This document shows positions 9,679 through 49,119 of a DNA stretch of 64,000 nucleotides, one piece after another. The stretch is from Stutzerimonas azotifigens (lineage in GTDB: Bacteria > Pseudomonadota > Gammaproteobacteria > Pseudomonadales > Pseudomonadaceae), in the NCBI RefSeq assembly GCF_013522725.1, contig NZ_JAAMRF010000005.1, positions 124,001-188,000 on the forward strand. Direction: 5' to 3'. How positions within the stretch are numbered: the stretch's first letter is position 1; every line of letters begins with the position of its first letter. Position numbers and translations under genes: made by a program. Below the pieces are notes generated by a model. That model was not told the origin of the DNA and did no database searches. It saw nothing but the letters and a program-made list of their open reading frames with translations.

Positions 9679-10278
9679 GGTGAATCTCCATTGACTTGGG
9701 AACAAGAAAGCGAAGACACACCGACCCAATGCGGGAGGTGCGTAACCCCGCAGTGGGTTGAGGAGCATCTGCATCCATCACCGGAGATCCGGTAGTTGTT
9801 CGCGCGAGGGATGCGGTGCGAACAGGGTCGGTCACACGGGAAAATCGTGGGCAGCCTTGAAGACCGAAGCGGCCTGGCATGTCGCTGACAACGTCAGCGG
9901 AACATGGGGTGAGCCTGGCGCTATGCGGATCTCGCGGCCAGGAGGAATCGGCTACTGCCGGTGACCTTATTAGTCAGTCGCCGCAGCAGCAGGTGGTGGG
10001 CTTGGTGCTTGTTGATTGTGTCTTTTCAGTCAATCGGCAGTCGTGACCGGCTGCAGTCGGCCAAAGAAGTCATTGAGTGTCTATAAAAGCAGGAGGCATT
10101 CAGCTGGCCTCACAGTACGAGAGACAGCGAGCGCGGATTCATCAGAATGGCGCATTGACATCAGCGTGCCGGCTTTGGCCTACTCGTGACATCTGTGCAT
10201 GACGTGAAAACAGCCGTCTTCTAGCGTTGAATTCACTTCAATGGGTAGATCTCAAATGCTAGGAAAGGAGTTCTTTGC
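9679..10278. other. Junction between ICE core and defence cargo, no gene
   Basis: About 600 bp separate the minus-strand DUF3577 gene from plus-strand qatA. I see no supported coding frame. A strong ribosome site (AGGAAAGGAG, 10263-10272) precedes the qatA ATG. The segment from about 10000 to 10110 looks like decayed insertion-element border sequence. The left breakpoint of the cargo insertion should lie here. Confidence 0.45.
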
Positions 10279-34924: not shown

Positions 34925-36038
34925 TGGAGACTCCTTAATGAAAAAGGGACTCCTGCCCGCAAGGGGGGTGTCCCTTGAGGGGTGGATGGCGCGACATGCG
35001 CCGGATAACAAAACAACCAGTGCGGTGAACCGCACCCCAGCCTTTAAGGTTTCGACTGCCTGGGATGTTGCCGGCGACGCCAGCGAACATGCTGCAACGA
35101 TAGTGCGCAGTCGGCGGGCTTGCGCGTGGCAAATCGAAACCGGTGGCCGCCGTATTGACGTCTCCAAGCACTTTTACGATGGGTTAGGGATAGAGACGCT
35201 AGTGCTGGCGTCCTGTTGTTAGGGCGTGGCTTGCAGCCTGGTGCGAACAAAAATACTCGAAGGACTCGCGCGAAGCCGGACCGCTGTCGTCGGCAGTGCC
35301 GATGAAGTAGCCGGCGGTACTGCGGCGTACCTCCAGAGGCAGGCGTTTACCTGCTTAGGTCAGGGCCAGATAACCGATTGGTTCAGTGCAGCGTGACTGA
35401 GGTGCATGGGACATGGAAGATGTCTCCTGGCTGGAATGGAACAAGGCACCGACGCCTTGCAGGCGTTCGGGCGTTCATGGGACAGGTCAGGCTGTGACCA
35501 CCTGCAGTTCGCCGTTGCTCTCGAAGATCAACTGCATGAATGCCCGGGCCAGCTTCGGCTGTTTCGGGTGGCCAGGAGAAAGGGGCCGAAGGCCTGGGCC
35601 TTCGGCTGTTGAGGAAGAAACCACCTGTGAGCTGCTGCAGGGAGTGGCCGTCGTCAAAGCCATCCGCTGTTGCAGCGATTACACTCGACCCTTGTCGTGG
35701 CTGGGGTCGAAATCCTTTGGCACGCATCTGCGTACAAAAGGAACCCGTTGTTTCGCCGGTGGGTTCCGGCGCTGAATACCGTTTGACCCGAAGGGTCTCC
35801 TGGGGGCTCGACCTGCTGTTGAGACAAGGCGCCAGGGGACCCTTCGAAGTGAAAGCTAGCAGATCATAAAGTCCATGTGGTACGGGCTGCGAATGAATCC
35901 GCCTTCTCGTCAAACCAGCTAATCGCCGGCGACGCGCACACGTTGCAGAAGGATAGTGCGTGCTGGGTTCCTCGCGTGAGCGAGGTATGCGTATCGGCCA
36001 TGGCCGATACGGTGGGGGACAAGGGCCGCGACCTATTT
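34925..36038. other. Gene-poor, hairpin-rich gap next to topB
   Basis: In an otherwise tightly packed minus-strand region, 1.1 kb has no supported gene. It contains several perfect inverted repeats: GCCGAAGGCC/GGCCTTCGGC at 35585-35606, GACCC/GGGTC near 35789, CCTCGC/GCGAGG near 35970, and the 20-bp palindrome GTATCGGCCATGGCCGATAC at 35991-36010. Candidate roles are a structured RNA, long leader or replication/transfer site. A longer open frame across 35383-36375 on the minus strand overlaps topB in another frame and is not supported. Confidence 0.5.
35991..36010. repeat. Perfect 20-bp palindrome downstream of topB
   Basis: GTATCGGCCATGGCCGATAC is its own reverse complement. It lies 29 bp beyond the topB stop and next to a second short hairpin (CCTCGC/GCGAGG). 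No T-run follows, so it could be a protein-binding site or a weak terminator. Confidence 0.6.
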
Positions 36039-41916: not shown

Positions 41917-43593
41917 TCAGTGGTCGGGCTTATCTGGATTGGCCTCCAGATCCAGAAGCCGGCGTGCCAGCCGGACCAGACGGAAAAACTTTACCAAGCC
42001 GTCGTCGCTCAGGCGGGGGAGGACTTTTGTGTCCCTGGCATCGGTTCCCAGAAAAAGCGCTCCCAAGCTGTCGTCCAAGTGCAGAACAGCCTTACCGGGT
42101 TCGGCCGAGTGTGGGGTACTCAATGCATGCAACAACGCCAACACCATGCGGGCGAACAAGGGCGGCGAAACGCTCTGTTCGTGCGGAGTGCAGGTGAAAC
42201 CTATGCCAGCCTTGTCCGCTTCGATGTAATTGGCCAGCTCAGCTTCCTCAGCGATCTCTTGGGCGAATTGCGCAATGTGGATGCGCAGCCGATCTGGTGA
42301 CTCCAGTCCAGGCTCGATGTACCAGACGTCGCTGATAGGGAACAGTCCACCGGCTTGAACGGGAATTGCCTGCAGCACGTTGTCCGTGAAGGTCGGCAGA
42401 GGCTCGCCGGTGTGGTTGGCAACCAGCTGCTGGATGGTCTGTAGCCGCTCCGTGCTGTCGGCGGGGGAGATGATGTGGCTCTGTAGACGCGCTTCGGTAT
42501 CCCCTTCATTAATGACGGCATTTGTCTCCGCTATCTGCATCGGCGAGGGTTGGGCAATAGTGTCATTGGATGTTGCAACTGGAGCGTCTGCTGCAGCGCT
42601 ATCGTTTCGAGTCGAAGTCGGCGGGTGAATGGGCGTAGTGTCGGTTTTGATTACGGTGTCGACGGTCGTGGCTTCGACTGGCAGCAGGGGTGGGCTATTC
42701 ACCGCACGCTGGCGATGTTCGATGCTGTCGACGTCAAGCTCGAGCACGTTGTAGTCGATACCAAGCAGCTCCGACATGTGGCCGATAAGTTCGTCTTGGA
42801 CCCGGTCGCCCGAAAAGGTGCCTGGCTGTTCGTCGAACGGTGCCAGGACATCATGGAATAGCGTCTCGAATTCAATGTTTAACGACTGCCCGCCCGCATA
42901 TTTTTCCCAGGTGAGTTCGGAGGCTTTACGCAGCACGGCCAACCGTTCGACTTGATGCCGTCCGAGCCCGTTGTAAAGCACGCTGGGAATGGAGGGCAGA
43001 AGGTAGCGCACGGTGTCTTGCATGCGGCTGATGTGGGACTGCGGAACTGGGAATCCATCGGCGCTGAGGCGGCGGGCGAGTTCCGACTGGGACAGCGACT
43101 TGCCGCTTTCCTGCTCGTAGAGCTCGCGGGCTTTTTCAACACCGAGCGCGCGCTCGATGAATGTCAGTCTGCCGTGCAGCTCGTTTTCCGCTAGGTGCCC
43201 AGTCAGCGCGATGATCTCGCCGCGCTCTGGCCACGGACGAAACAGGCACAGAATACGGAAGAAACTTTCACTCTTGGTCTCGGACCATAGTTCGCGTAGG
43301 ACGGCGAGCCGGGTATTGCCGCCGTTACGAATGATGAAGTGGTCGGCACCGGGGCGTCGGGTTATCGGGGGTGGGGCATCGAGGCCCCGCTCACGGATGG
43401 ACGCTTTTATTTCGTCGTAGAGCGGGTTGCGTGTCAGGCGTGGATCAAGTTCATAGGGATGCAGGTCGTCGAGTGTGACAACCATTGGCGTCTCGGCGAT
43501 AGGATCACTCAATGCCCGTGCTGCTGGACCTGAGTGGGAAAACCCGTCGGCCATCAGTTTGCCGGCCATTTCTTGCAAAGAGACATTAGTCAT
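41917..43593 (-). CDS. parB: ParB-family protein of the ICE type
   Basis: A 558-residue ParB-like protein of the PFGI-1/ICE type, roughly twice the length of chromosomal ParB. The N-terminal ParB nuclease-like domain (about 35-140) has LDDLHPYELDPRLTRNP and GGNTRL. A helix-turn-helix region follows (SLSQSELARRLSADGFPVPQSHISRMQ, about 175-205). The central part (about 310-390) is low-complexity, and a C-terminal domain of unknown role ends the protein. It probably works with ParA in ICE partition or maintenance. It overlaps the small upstream gene by 8 bp. Confidence 0.88.
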   Translation of the reverse strand: MTNVSLQEMAGKLMADGFSHSGPAARALSDPIAETPMVVTLDDLHPYELDPRLTRNPLYDEIKASIRERGLDAPPPITRRPGADHFIIRNGGNTRLAVLRELWSETKSESFFRILCLFRPWPERGEIIALTGHLAENELHGRLTFIERALGVEKARELYEQESGKSLSQSELARRLSADGFPVPQSHISRMQDTVRYLLPSIPSVLYNGLGRHQVERLAVLRKASELTWEKYAGGQSLNIEFETLFHDVLAPFDEQPGTFSGDRVQDELIGHMSELLGIDYNVLELDVDSIEHRQRAVNSPPLLPVEATTVDTVIKTDTTPIHPPTSTRNDSAAADAPVATSNDTIAQPSPMQIAETNAVINEGDTEARLQSHIISPADSTERLQTIQQLVANHTGEPLPTFTDNVLQAIPVQAGGLFPISDVWYIEPGLESPDRLRIHIAQFAQEIAEEAELANYIEADKAGIGFTCTPHEQSVSPPLFARMVLALLHALSTPHSAEPGKAVLHLDDSLGALFLGTDARDTKVLPRLSDDGLVKFFRLVRLARRLLDLEANPDKPDH

Positions 43594-43816
43594 TCCGGCC
43601 TCCCTGCTGGTGGCGACCGGCGCTGGCGCCTCTAAGCGTTTGGCGTGCTCGAATATCGCTTGTTGTTGAGCTGGTGAAGATCGGCGGTAAGCTCGGCTTC
43701 ACGAACTTCAGCAGTCCTTCCGGCGTTCGGTGGACTTCCCAGCCCTCACTCAAAGCGAACTCAATCAGCAGCAGTAACCGCTTATGACCGTGGCAGAGTT
43801 CATTAGCGCTCGACAT
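43586..43816 (-). CDS. Small ICE protein between parA and parB (Shi-like position)
   Basis: A 76-residue basic protein beginning MSSANELCHGHKRLLLLIEFALSEGW, overlapping parA by 14 bp and parB by 8 bp. The overlaps on both sides support translation. In ICEclc a small gene called shi lies at this place. I see a helical N terminus and a Gly/Arg-rich tail and no known domain. The end overlapping parB may be shorter in reality. Confidence 0.6.
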   Translation of the reverse strand: MSSANELCHGHKRLLLLIEFALSEGWEVHRTPEGLLKFVKPSLPPIFTSSTTSDIRARQTLRGASAGRHQQGGRND

Positions 43817-44663
43817 GTGAACGCCTCCTGTTAAGTCGGCCGCTCACGCAGGCAAGCTGCTCTTGCCACTGCGGGCAAAGTTCGCGTGCGAGCGCACGCA
43901 TGGTCTCCAGGGCCGCCGGTGCTTGGCGCCCGGTCGGGCGTCGGTGTTCGATCGTGTGTACGGGTTGACTCGACGTTGCGGCACGGGGGAACGCCTCGAT
44001 GGCGGGTATCTCGGTGTGCAGTATCTGTACCTCGTCACTCTCGCGAAAAATCAGCCGTAGAGTCTGCTGAACTAACTTTGCGTTCGACGAGATGGTCGGT
44101 ACGCGGTTGAGCAGCAAACGCAGTGGCGGAGGCTGGATACCCAAGCGGCGGTAGGGTGCGATTGCATCGACAAGCTGCAGTGTTCCTCGCTGCAGCTCCC
44201 GGGCTGCCAGAGTTTCGGGGGTGATAGGGGAGACAGCTAGATCAGCCGCGAGCATGGCCATCTCTAGCATGATGCTGCGCGCGCCCTGTGTATCGATCAC
44301 CACCAGGTCGTAGTGTTGTCTGAATAGCTGCAGCAAGTTGCGCAGGCGCAGGCGCCCATCCGCTGCGTGCAGCAATAGCGTTCCCAGCTGTTGGTGCTCG
44401 TCATTGGACAGCACCACATCCAGACCTTTGATGGTCGTGTGCGATACCAACTGCGGTAGTGCTTGTTCATTAAATGCCAGCAGTTCGTAGATGCCGCCAG
44501 CGGCGCGGTGGGTGAGTTCGTAGTAGGACGATAAGGTGGGCTGCATGTCGAGGTCGATCAGCAGCACCCGCATACCAGCGTCAGCGATGAAGCCTCCCAG
44601 GTTGGCCGCGACGGTCGTTTTACCTACTCCGCCCTTCGTCGAAATGATGGCTATCACTTGCAT
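43803..44663 (-). CDS. parA: ParA-family partition ATPase
   Basis: A 286-residue deviant-Walker ATPase. KGGVGKTT at residues 10-17 is the deviant Walker A motif, LLIDLDMQPTLS near residue 35 is the A' motif, and DLVVIDTQGARS near residue 118 is Walker B. There is no N-terminal DNA-binding domain, so it is the short Soj-like form. It would segregate or stabilise the ICE with ParB. It follows alpA by 30 bp. Confidence 0.91.
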   Translation of the reverse strand: MQVIAIISTKGGVGKTTVAANLGGFIADAGMRVLLIDLDMQPTLSSYYELTHRAAGGIYELLAFNEQALPQLVSHTTIKGLDVVLSNDEHQQLGTLLLHAADGRLRLRNLLQLFRQHYDLVVIDTQGARSIMLEMAMLAADLAVSPITPETLAARELQRGTLQLVDAIAPYRRLGIQPPPLRLLLNRVPTISSNAKLVQQTLRLIFRESDEVQILHTEIPAIEAFPRAATSSQPVHTIEHRRPTGRQAPAALETMRALARELCPQWQEQLACVSGRLNRRRSHVER

Positions 44664-46822: not shown

Positions 46823-46840
46823 AGTCTCGTTTCCCGCTCC
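46823..46840 (+). other. attR: 18-bp tRNA-Gly 3' end
   Basis: GTCTCGTTTCCCGCTCCA is the 3' end of tRNA-Gly including CCA. Upstream bases do not continue the tRNA, so this is a stand-alone copy, as left by site-specific insertion of ICEclc-type elements in a tRNA-Gly gene. The complete tRNA-Gly should be at the far (left) end of the ICE, outside the window. Confidence 0.9.
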
Positions 46841-46849
46841 AGTTTGTTG

Positions 46850-46885: not shown

Positions 46886-46959
46886 GGCCGGTTGGCAGAG
46901 TGGTTATGCAGCGGATTGCAAATCCGTGTACGCCGGTTCGATTCCGACATCGGCCTCCA
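46886..46959 (+). tRNA. tRNA-Cys (GCA)
   Basis: A 74-nt cloverleaf. The acceptor stem GGCCGGT pairs with ATCGGCC, the D arm is TGGCAGAGTGGTTATGCA, the anticodon loop TTGCAAA gives GCA, the T arm has GGTTCGATTCC, and CCA is encoded. It lies 46 bp after attR and would follow tRNA-Gly in the undisturbed chromosome. Confidence 0.95.
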
Positions 46960-47000: not shown

Positions 47001-47095
47001 GTTCCCGTCCCGGGTTGTATCCAAACCGCTACGCGGTTGCATGGGTGGGAGAGGGTGGTTATAGTCCTGCGCGCCGCGAGCTGCTGACGCGGCAT

Positions 47096-47411
47096 GCCCG
47101 AGTGGTGAAACTGGTAGACACAGGGGACTTGAATCAATTTGAGCCCTCCGGAGGAAACTCCAGAGGTGAAGCCCGTCAAATTCGGCGAACGCCCTGGATG
47201 CTCAACGCGTCCGAGCCAACGCCGAGCCAAGCCCGAATGCGAAAGCGTTGGGAAGGTGTAGAGAGCAGACGGCGGGCACCTAAGGCGTCAGGCTAAGGTG
47301 AAGGCGTGCTCCAGACCACGAACAGCGTCCACGCTGGCGGCGAAAGCCGAAGTGGTAAGAAAATCCCCCGACTTAACCGTCGTGCCGGTTCGATTCCGGC
47401 CTCGGGCACCA
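47096..47411 (+). tRNA. tRNA-Leu (UAA), split by a group I intron
   Basis: The exons are 47096-47130 and 47360-47411. Spliced, they give an 87-nt class II tRNA. The acceptor stem GCCCGAG pairs with CTCGGGC, the anticodon stem GGGGA with TCCCC, the loop is CTTAAAA with anticodon TAA, the long variable arm is CGACTTAACCGTCG, the T arm GCCGGTTCGATTCCGGC, and CCA is encoded. The interruption falls between U34 and A35. Confidence 0.93.
47131..47359 (+). ncRNA. Group I intron (IC3-like) in tRNA-Leu(UAA)
   Basis: A 229-nt self-splicing-type intron without an ORF. The 5' exon ends in U and the intron ends in G, as group I requires. An internal guide (GAGCCC near 47141) can pair with the exon end CUU including a U-G wobble. 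The core blocks GTCAAATTCGGCGAA, CAACGCCGAGCCAAGC, GGTGTAGAGA and CACCTAAGGC match what I remember of the Azoarcus tRNA-Ile intron. GAAA tetraloops cap hairpins in the P2 (GGAGGAAACTCC) and P9 (GGCGAAAGCC) positions. Confidence 0.9.
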
Positions 47412-47886: not shown

Positions 47887-48279
47887 GCGGTCTTGATCGA
47901 AGGCTCTGCCTCTTTCACGTGTTCGTCCGAAAACGTAAAGGTGAGGCGACTCGCAACACGAACGCCAGCGGACAGTTAGCCGGTCAGCGCCGACGTGCTG
48001 CCAGCGTCGCCGCGGTAGACAGATGGCATCGCCCGGATCACTCTATGGCGCCCGCGAAGACCCGGCTCCGATCCAGGTGGCGGTCGACAGATCCGAGCTG
48101 ATGCGTACCGTTTATTAGCGCGCTGCGAACCCCCCGGGCGTTCGGTGGTCGTAGCCTCTAGATTCGGCCTCCTGCGCAGATTTGCTCATCTCGAAAGGCG
48201 TCGGCCGGTCACCGCAAGGCAGCTGTACCTGTCGTTCAAGCGGCACATCGATTGGAACCATATCCATCAAGGACTCAGT
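47887..48279. other. Leader region of galU, no gene
   Basis: About 390 bp. Frames here extend galU upstream but have no ribosome site, while AAGGACT lies just before the ATG at 48280. No other feature seen. Confidence 0.5.
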
Positions 48280-49119
48280 ATGATCAAGAAATGCCTTTTT
48301 CCCGCGGCCGGATACGGTACCCGCTTCCTGCCAGCCACCAAGGCAATGCCCAAGGAAATGCTGCCGGTGGTCAACAAGCCCCTGATTCAATATGGGGTCG
48401 AGGAAGCGCTGGAGGCAGGGCTGAACCAGATCGCGATCGTTACCGGGCGGGGCAAGCGTTCGCTGGAAGATCACTTCGACATCAGCTACGAGCTGGAACA
48501 CCAGATCCGCAATACCGACAAGGAAAAATACCTGGTCGGTATCCGCAAGCTCATCGATGAATGCAGCTTCTCCTATACCCGCCAAGTTGAAATGAAAGGT
48601 CTGGGGCATGCCATTCTCAGCGGTCGTCCGCTGATCGGCGACGAGCCGTTCGCCGTGGTGCTGGCTGACGACCTCTGCATCAATCTCGAGGGTGACAGCG
48701 TCCTGGCGCAGATGGTCAAACTGTACAACCAGTTCCGCTGCTCCATCGTCGCCATCCAGGAAGTGCCACCGGAAGAGACCAGCAAGTACGGCGTGATCGC
48801 CGGCGAGATGATCCGCGACGACATCTTCCGCGTCAGCCACATGGTCGAAAAACCCAAGCCTGAAGACGCACCGTCGAACATGGCGATCATCGGCCGCTAC
48901 ATCCTGACGCCGGACATCTTCGAGCTGATCGAGCAGACCGAGCCGGGCAAGGGCGGGGAAATCCAGATCACCGATGCACTGATGCGCCAGGCCAAGGACG
49001 GTTGCGTGCTGGCCTACAAGTTCAAGGGCCAGCGCTTCGACTGCGGCAGTGCAGAGGGTTATATCGCCGCCACCAACTTCTGCTACGAGCACTTCTACCA
49101 GACCGGCAAGGCGTTCTAA
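48280..49119 (+). CDS. galU: UTP-glucose-1-phosphate uridylyltransferase GalU
   Basis: A 279-residue cytoplasmic nucleotidyltransferase that makes UDP-glucose for cell-surface polysaccharides. The N-terminal KKCLFPAAGYGTRFLPATKAMPKEMLP is the nucleotide-binding signature, VVLADDLC near residue 125 carries the metal-binding aspartates, and EKPKPEDAPSN-AI-GRY-L near residue 190 is conserved in GalU. Start ATG 48280 gives the normal length. A strong terminator follows. The gene is typical of Pseudomonas chromosomes, supporting that this part is outside the ICE. Confidence 0.95.
   Translation: MIKKCLFPAAGYGTRFLPATKAMPKEMLPVVNKPLIQYGVEEALEAGLNQIAIVTGRGKRSLEDHFDISYELEHQIRNTDKEKYLVGIRKLIDECSFSYTRQVEMKGLGHAILSGRPLIGDEPFAVVLADDLCINLEGDSVLAQMVKLYNQFRCSIVAIQEVPPEETSKYGVIAGEMIRDDIFRVSHMVEKPKPEDAPSNMAIIGRYILTPDIFELIEQTEPGKGGEIQITDALMRQAKDGCVLAYKFKGQRFDCGSAEGYIAATNFCYEHFYQTGKAF

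Follow-up and report, generated by a model that had tools for sequence, protein, structure and literature searches.

The window (the whole stretch of 64,000 nucleotides that was analyzed) carries a tRNA-Leu(UAA) gene split by a group I intron, and the present analysis ties genes of this type to integrative elements. In relatives, the intron-bearing gene is the replacement tRNA of an element integrated in tRNA-Leu (seven genomes of the family). These integrative elements, with measured lengths of 45 to 68 kb, sever the host gene in its anticodon loop and supply a complete replacement whose intron splits the same core. The tie between an intron-bearing tRNA gene and elements severing the native gene, with the intron located within the crossover core, is new. 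Taken as a whole, we consider it fairly probable that the window gene contains a self-splicing intron in an element-derived replacement tRNA gene, which the intron would hide from the integrase. Since the gene is tied to severing elements and the intron lies in their core, both the spread of these introns and the selection of a ribozyme for hiding DNA become testable.

Group I introns of bacterial tRNA genes generally pass for harmless riders whose distribution is oddly scattered. In its passages on phages, a 2014 review locates all phage introns then known in protein genes despite the many tRNA genes of phages, and, where it deals with mobility, sees little evidence of bacterial introns moving between species (PMC3984707). 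Among open PMC papers (thus without subscription papers), no report of intron-bearing replacement tRNAs on integrative elements was recognized.

A group I intron in the tRNA-Leu(UAA) gene of the window

With introns allowed, ARAGORN identified at positions 47096-47411 a tRNA-Leu with anticodon TAA and a 229-nt intron after position 35; without introns, it missed this gene and reported the neighboring tRNA-Cys alone. The Rfam model Intron_gpI covers 47121-47314 end to end (49.2 bits, E 4.1e-11) and, because this score falls just below the curated cut-off of 50 bits, the intron is absent from the default Rfam scan. During annotation, window-type genes escape both this default threshold and intron-blind tRNA finding. 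The exon/intron borders, read from the sequence, are 47130/47131 and 47359/47360; the last base of the 5′ exon is a U that pairs with a guide G, and the intron ends with a G. An earlier note on this DNA, which had proposed the Rfam search, was right about the 229-nt intron between U34 and A35, about the U at the 5′ exon end, the terminal G and the two GAAA loops of P2 and P9 (Table 1), and about an insertion at the cyanobacterial and plastid tRNA-Leu site in a gammaproteobacterium.

The intron possesses the conserved P3-P8 core, including P7, that defines group I, together with covariation. In nine aligned cores (the window, four tRNA-Leu relatives and four CAU-tRNA relatives), 95.6% of the helix cells are paired compared to 79.5% in shuffles, and 18 pairs are changed on both sides compared to 12.6 (sd 1.6). 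The covariation score reaches 0.435, whereas shuffles give 0.168 and slid partners no more than 0.064. The count of further pair types (31), equalled in 58 of 500 shuffles, is less telling. This covariation rules out a chance match as the source of the intron call. From its sequence and fold, the window intron is a group I intron that is most likely self-splicing and, by resemblance, may belong to subgroup IC3. Among the listed ORFs of at least 90 aa, assessed by position only, no homing endonuclease was seen in the intron; the only one of them that crosses it encodes 93 aa (47015-47296).

Table 1. Features of the tRNA-Leu(UAA) locus (positions in the window)
Feature	Positions	Strand	Basis
tRNA-Cys, native upstream neighbor	46886..46959	+	ARAGORN
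tRNA-Leu(UAA) gene with CCA end, intron-split	47096..47411	+	ARAGORN with introns; one genomic place for the whole split gene (BLAST)
5′ exon, ends U33 U34, element-type spelling GTGGTGAAACTGGTAGACAC	47096..47130	+	
Group I intron, 229 nt, between U34 and A35	47131..47359	+	Rfam, ARAGORN, covariation
Internal guide GAGCCC; P1 with 5′ exon GGG(A)CUU, U.G at splice site	47141..47146	+	Read from sequence
P2, GAAA loop 47154-47157	47145..47166	+	Read from sequence
P3 5′ strand, partner 47271-47277	47171..47177	+	Covariation, helix 1
P4 (47182-47187 with 47220-47225), P5 in between	47182..47225	+	Covariation, helices 2-4
P6	47226..47257	+	Covariation, helices 5-6
P7 5′ strand GAGCA, partner UGCUC 47307-47311	47263..47267	+	Helix 7, two-sided change in 3/5 pairs
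P8	47278..47299	+	Covariation, helix 8
P9 region, GAAA loop 47342-47345	47316..47355	+	Read from sequence
3′ exon, starts at A35	47360..47411	+	ARAGORN
galU-like nucleotidyl transferase, native downstream neighbor	48145..49119	+	Pfam NTP_transferase; order kept in S. nosocomialis and G024

Elements that sever the native tRNA-Leu(UAA) gene

In relatives, a differently spelled 5′ half of tRNA-Leu(UAA) ends after the core CTTAAAATC and is followed by a conserved arm. Mostly 160-220 bp past the severed half, an entire intron-bearing gene begins. This 5′ half varies by host; the arm is nearly identical in Azomonas, Stenotrophomonas acidaminiphila and a Lysobacterales MAG. The CTTAAAA core followed by the arm is present upstream of 33 of the 127 distinct tRNA-Leu introns, usually at the end of a severed host 5′ half (no arm in the 94 others). 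Control scans found this motif in 0/127 cases downstream and in 0/127 on each of two reverse strands, and these three scans rule out its chance origin.

In the closed G162 chromosome, the other half of the native gene (from CTTAAAATCTCTCG to GGGCACCA) lies 57.4 kb from the 5′ half, core to core. A 400-aa tyrosine recombinase (PF00589) is encoded just inside the right end, and TrbI, TrbL, a coupling protein and a TrbE/VirB4-like ATPase are encoded between the two halves; a DUF3363 protein gives a strong match, its Relaxase match being just below the cut-off. Since integrase and conjugation genes are located between the severed halves, this element is an integrative and conjugative element. It has long stretches in common with the other tRNA-Leu elements, whose core-to-core lengths are 68.2 kb (KOS6), 66.0 kb (P. 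jinjuensis, G068) and 62.5 kb (G652); the G608 element is about 45 kb long measured from its left arm, and the ends of those of G109 and G010 are on different contigs. As in known integrative and conjugative elements of tRNA genes, a tyrosine recombinase, conjugation genes and a tRNA target are found. However, such elements, as usually described, restore the tRNA gene that they enter, whereas the tRNA-Leu elements sever their target and carry a whole intron-split replacement. In G162, a Gabija pair (GajA and GajB; L334, 14991-19201) adjoins the replacement tRNA within the element.

Two other modes of spread were rejected. Homing of the intron alone is ruled out, the exon spelling traveling with the intron. 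Phage spread of the window clade is not borne out by its five IMG/VR rows (L072, L074, L089, L111 and L115), which look like the host flanks of proviruses: their upstream DNA (only 68 bp for L089) is Achromobacter-like and devoid of the arm. The arm pattern had no match in viral sequences.

A search starting from the integrase of the G162 element (298 genomes of the family, E 1e-60) gave matches in 26 genomes, eight of them with at least 86% identity. Integrases of at least this identity are present in seven of the 17 genomes with a Leu intron compared to one of the 281 others (Fisher p 3.9e-9, kinship between genomes being ignored). A severed native 3′ half lies beside them in seven of the eight genomes, compared to none at the 22 other integrase loci; likewise, no tRNA-Leu 3′ half is near the integrases with 61-70% identity (18 other genomes). 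In the eighth genome (G055), the element ends in a changed core, CTTGAAATC, beside other DNA. Of the seven genomes with a severed 3′ half, six have a matching attL; the exception is G608, whose left core is occupied by a group II intron (RF00029, 62 bits) that is followed by the arm. Ten of the 17 Leu-intron genomes of the family, including that of the window, have no integrase with at least 86% identity.

Distribution and phylogeny of the introns

Distribution was examined with a core model (R1) and strict filters; an earlier RF00028 search had missed the window itself. For both reasons, the counts of genomes are lower bounds. The model matches at least 22 of the 298 Pseudomonadaceae genomes: 17 matches are in tRNA-Leu(UAA), four in CAU tRNAs (two of them reassigned by reading, their anticodon having been miscalled by ARAGORN) and one without tRNA according to ARAGORN. 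In wider searches, it detected at least 63 genomes in the class (369 searched), at least 27 in the phylum (299 searched) and at least 47 in a cyanobacterial phylum (146 searched). Among the loci of the class search, 19 of 30 are tRNA-Leu(UAA), as read from the ARAGORN output; the others are Leu(CAA), Ser(UGA), CAU, Arg(CCU), Arg(UCU) and Thr-like tRNAs, and two without call. A pattern scan of named genomes retrieved at least 117 stretches, of which at least 114 yield an intron-bearing tRNA; the matches listed include many Burkholderiales, Lysobacterales and Pseudomonas/Stutzerimonas, three cyanobacteria, and some MAGs labelled as other phyla that may be misbinned. In their passages on distribution, reviews of 2014 and 2024 place such introns in cyanobacteria, alpha- and betaproteobacteria (PMC4033280, PMC11408192). 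The core matches in the class and in the phylum, in several tRNA types, bear out the wider lineage that the earlier note had offered as an option. Overall, an intron-bearing tRNA-Leu is not an oddity of the window, many beta- and gammaproteobacteria having one.

In a FastTree phylogeny of 192 introns, whose deep forks are weak and whose root is arbitrary, the window belongs to a clade of 116 rows (98% local support) in which Pseudomonadales are interspersed with Lysobacterales, Burkholderiales, Nitrosomonadales and others. The kept alignment columns show no difference between the Azomonas intron (L042) and that of Lysobacter concretionis (L131). The window's own group comprises 28 rows (88%), among them S. 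nosocomialis and Achromobacter, and no row of this group has an element end. An 18-row clade (95%) gathers Leu and Arg introns from genomes of other classes of the same phylum and one row of the window's class. The tRNA-Leu introns of cyanobacteria are grouped apart (20 rows, 99% local support), which bears out the view that the window's core is unlike theirs: they are group I introns at the same U34/A35 site of the same tRNA but belong to another clade, element ties having been examined for the window clade side only. Close kinship with the Azoarcus tRNA-Ile(CAU) intron, whose core blocks the note had likened to those of the window, was not borne out. Both are small tRNA introns with similar core words; however, the tRNA-Ile introns at the Azoarcus site (L258 and L271) are inserted after the CAU anticodon and are outside the window's clade, L271 being in the tree on a long branch. 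Introns of tRNA-Ile2 are mentioned for Acidovorax and Burkholderia in a passage of PMC8450103. Lateral transfer between tRNA genes, the other option raised, fits in part: in the window's clade, the evidence points to transfer of the whole gene on integrative elements, not of the intron alone; a tRNA-Leu(CAA) gene (L015) has an intron within the window's clade.

The window gene in its genome

In the draft genome of the window (4.83 Mb, 34 contigs), a pattern with at most two mismatches revealed no uninterrupted tRNA-Leu(UAA), the second copy that the note had suggested looking for, and matched a GGATTCAAAATCC gene only, which is read as tRNA-Leu(CAA). The single uninterrupted match being this one, the cell seems to have no tRNA-Leu(UAA) other than the split gene, which would be its sole reader of UUA. 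The same pattern found a ACTTAAAA copy in 13 of the 15 other searched genomes lacking a Leu intron. It found no intact tRNA-Leu(UAA) in G043 and G072, both without Leu intron, and the copies that it retrieved in G030 turned out to be one severed half and one copy with a flipped stem pair.

The gene order tRNA-Cys, intron-split tRNA-Leu, galU, gor is common to the window and S. nosocomialis (91% over the galU-gor stretch), and the same order surrounds an intact tRNA-Leu in G024; in G162, galU is located about 5 kb past the severed 3′ half. A promoter-like TTATAGTCCTGCG ahead of the window gene is also present in a relative with an intact gene. Whereas the window exons have the element-type spelling, the intact genes of relatives are spelled otherwise. 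The core-plus-arm motif is absent from the 700 bp upstream of the window gene, no second tRNA-Leu half was found in about 57 kb from 46801 onward, and no close element integrase (at least 86%) was found anywhere in the genome. Spelling and location suggest that the window gene is probably a replacement at the native place, i.e. the scar of an element since lost, for instance by recombination between like halves. A window-type gene may also have moved in the opposite direction, from host to element.

Close to this locus, the 3′ end of a tRNA-Gly gene (GTCTCGTTTCCCGCTCCA, 46824-46841) is devoid of its 5′ part, S. nosocomialis having a whole tRNA-Gly there; we presume that this sequence equals the attachment sequence of ICEclc. 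A ParA-like gene is located left of the remnant (41917-44663), and both probably constitute one end of another integrative element. Two radC RNA motifs on the minus strand (9771-9916 and 34952-35101) perhaps belong to the same tRNA-Gly-side element.

A replacement gene proposed to be hidden from the integrase

According to the mechanism that we propose, the elements enter the host tRNA-Leu(UAA) gene by recombination at its anticodon loop, which separates the 5′ half from the 3′ half, and bring a complete replacement gene close to their left end, on the inner side. The anticodon loop of this replacement is itself the crossover core; an uninterrupted replacement would therefore be a second target besides the element's own end. 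The U34/A35 intron would split this core in DNA and be removed in RNA, giving a working tRNA whose gene is hidden from the integrase. At the window, the element would be gone and the replacement left at the native place, this gene descending from element-borne replacement genes or sharing an ancestor with them.

The 9-bp core comprises the anticodon loop and two bases of the stem; in the carried gene, the intron interrupts it after the third base. The used sites have three different stems (AGAGA/TCTCT, AGGGA/TCCCT and GGAGA/TCTCT), and stem variation is therefore tolerated. The carried replacement genes have AGGGA or GGGGA stems; once spliced, the arm of those of KOS6 and Azomonas, CAAGGGACTTAAAATCCCTC, is identical to the site used. 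Given this tolerance and this identity, an intronless replacement should be a target.

An independent case, found through its similarity to the window intron, comes from the Gordonia phage Daredevil (NC_048021.1). It carries a tRNA-Lys(UUU), unannotated in the record, with a 238-nt intron after U34 (borders given by the program) for which Rfam reports nothing at E 0.001. This gene adjoins an annotated integrase, and between the two lies CGGACTTTTAATCCGC, identical to its spliced arm and present once in the 4.1-kb stretch. As in the tRNA-Leu elements, an intron-split tRNA thus lies next to an integrase and to its own anticodon arm in uninterrupted form; unlike them, it is a tRNA-Lys(UUU) of a phage with an actinobacterial host, known here from phage DNA alone.

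Two replacements are intronless. In G030, a tRNA-Leu whose loop-adjacent stem pair is flipped (GCACTTAAAATGC) adjoins a severed 3′ half and a recombinase-like protein (Phage_int_SAM_3 above the cut-off, Phage_integrase below), the severed 5′ half being on another contig. In G608, the group II intron, which encodes a reverse transcriptase and is present at two genomic places, contains a complete tRNA-Leu(UAA) with the flipped stem. Only two of the nine genomes with a flip-stem tRNA-Leu (G030 and G608) have a severed half within 1.5 kb. The G608 group II intron (L411, 6859-9421, and L412) is inserted in tRNA-Leu genes after CTTAAAA.

We give even weight, for and against, to a general strategy in which mobile DNA targeting the anticodon loops of essential tRNA genes would carry a replacement invisible to its recombinase. 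The means would be either an intron in the core, as in the tRNA-Leu elements of beta- and gammaproteobacteria and in the Gordonia phage with tRNA-Lys, or a flipped stem pair, as in the second integrase element and the group II intron. If true, this strategy would give bacterial tRNA group I introns a selected function, and part of their scatter among tRNA genes would be the scars of such elements.

Alternative explanations

The replacement could be needed merely because integration destroys the native tRNA, the intron being a neutral rider without effect on the integrase. This explanation, possible although we hold it rather unlikely, draws on elements of another tRNA. In G071, G178 and G013, the native tRNA-Ile is cut in its T loop, and a tRNA-Ile(CAU) gene with an anticodon-loop intron comes after it; the missing end of the native gene lies 8.8, 36.3 and 34.8 kb away, respectively; a tyrosine recombinase follows in G178 and G071. 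An intron in the anticodon loop leaves a T-loop core whole, so that either core hiding is an incomplete account or recognition reaches further. Same-site introns also exist in cyanobacteria and in 25 viral contigs without any true core nearby (ACTTAAAA is close to the Leu intron in two of them, both chance-like). However, a neutral rider would not be expected to be found in all seven elements detected through their integrase and having a severed 3′ half, inside a core of 9 bp, or at the same place beside an integrase in a phage with another tRNA, and the two intronless replacements have altered stems instead. We therefore prefer hiding from the integrase. The tRNA-Ile elements (L008, L009 and L010; G178, G071 and G013) cut at GGTTC and have the ends TTATGTGG and CCACATAA.

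The intron-bearing tRNA-Leu could also be native, inherited vertically for a long time and merely captured by elements, the window being unrelated to any of them. The location of the window gene at the native place and its tree group without element ends (S. nosocomialis, Achromobacter and others) agree with such inheritance. It is nevertheless improbable, as the gene is present in only 17 of the 298 genomes of the family, relatives have an intact and differently spelled gene, orders are mixed in the tree, and Azomonas and Lysobacter share introns that are identical over the kept columns. As for cyanobacteria, an origin from their introns was rejected on the basis of the separate clades. Transfer of the intron alone from their tRNA-Leu genes would explain the common insertion site, but the distance between the two well-supported clades and the exons that differ from native ones along with the intron make it extremely improbable. 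Descent from an element-borne replacement, or common ancestry with one, remains our preferred reading.

Other introns encountered

Several other introns were also recorded. A 79-kb viral contig (L114, IMGVR_UViG_3300035037_000204) carries three intron-bearing tRNAs, Arg(UCU), CAU and Leu(UAA). The Leu introns of five other viral contigs (L068, L085, L088, L103 and L107) are 671-809 nt long, and their ORFs of 165-185 aa are HNH endonuclease-like by eye (LELDHIDG, CPNCHAQT). In G063 (L002 and L061), an 80.6-bit group I intron has no surrounding tRNA and is perhaps in a protein gene. Lastly, two plasmids (L405 and L406; CP094253.1 and NZ_CP023816.1) carry a tRNA-Leu(UAA) with an intron of another subtype, next to an AAA ATPase gene and aac(3)-IId and with a core-like CGGACTTAAAAAGTC upstream; at least 80% of this 651-bp stretch is present in 1210 plasmid records.
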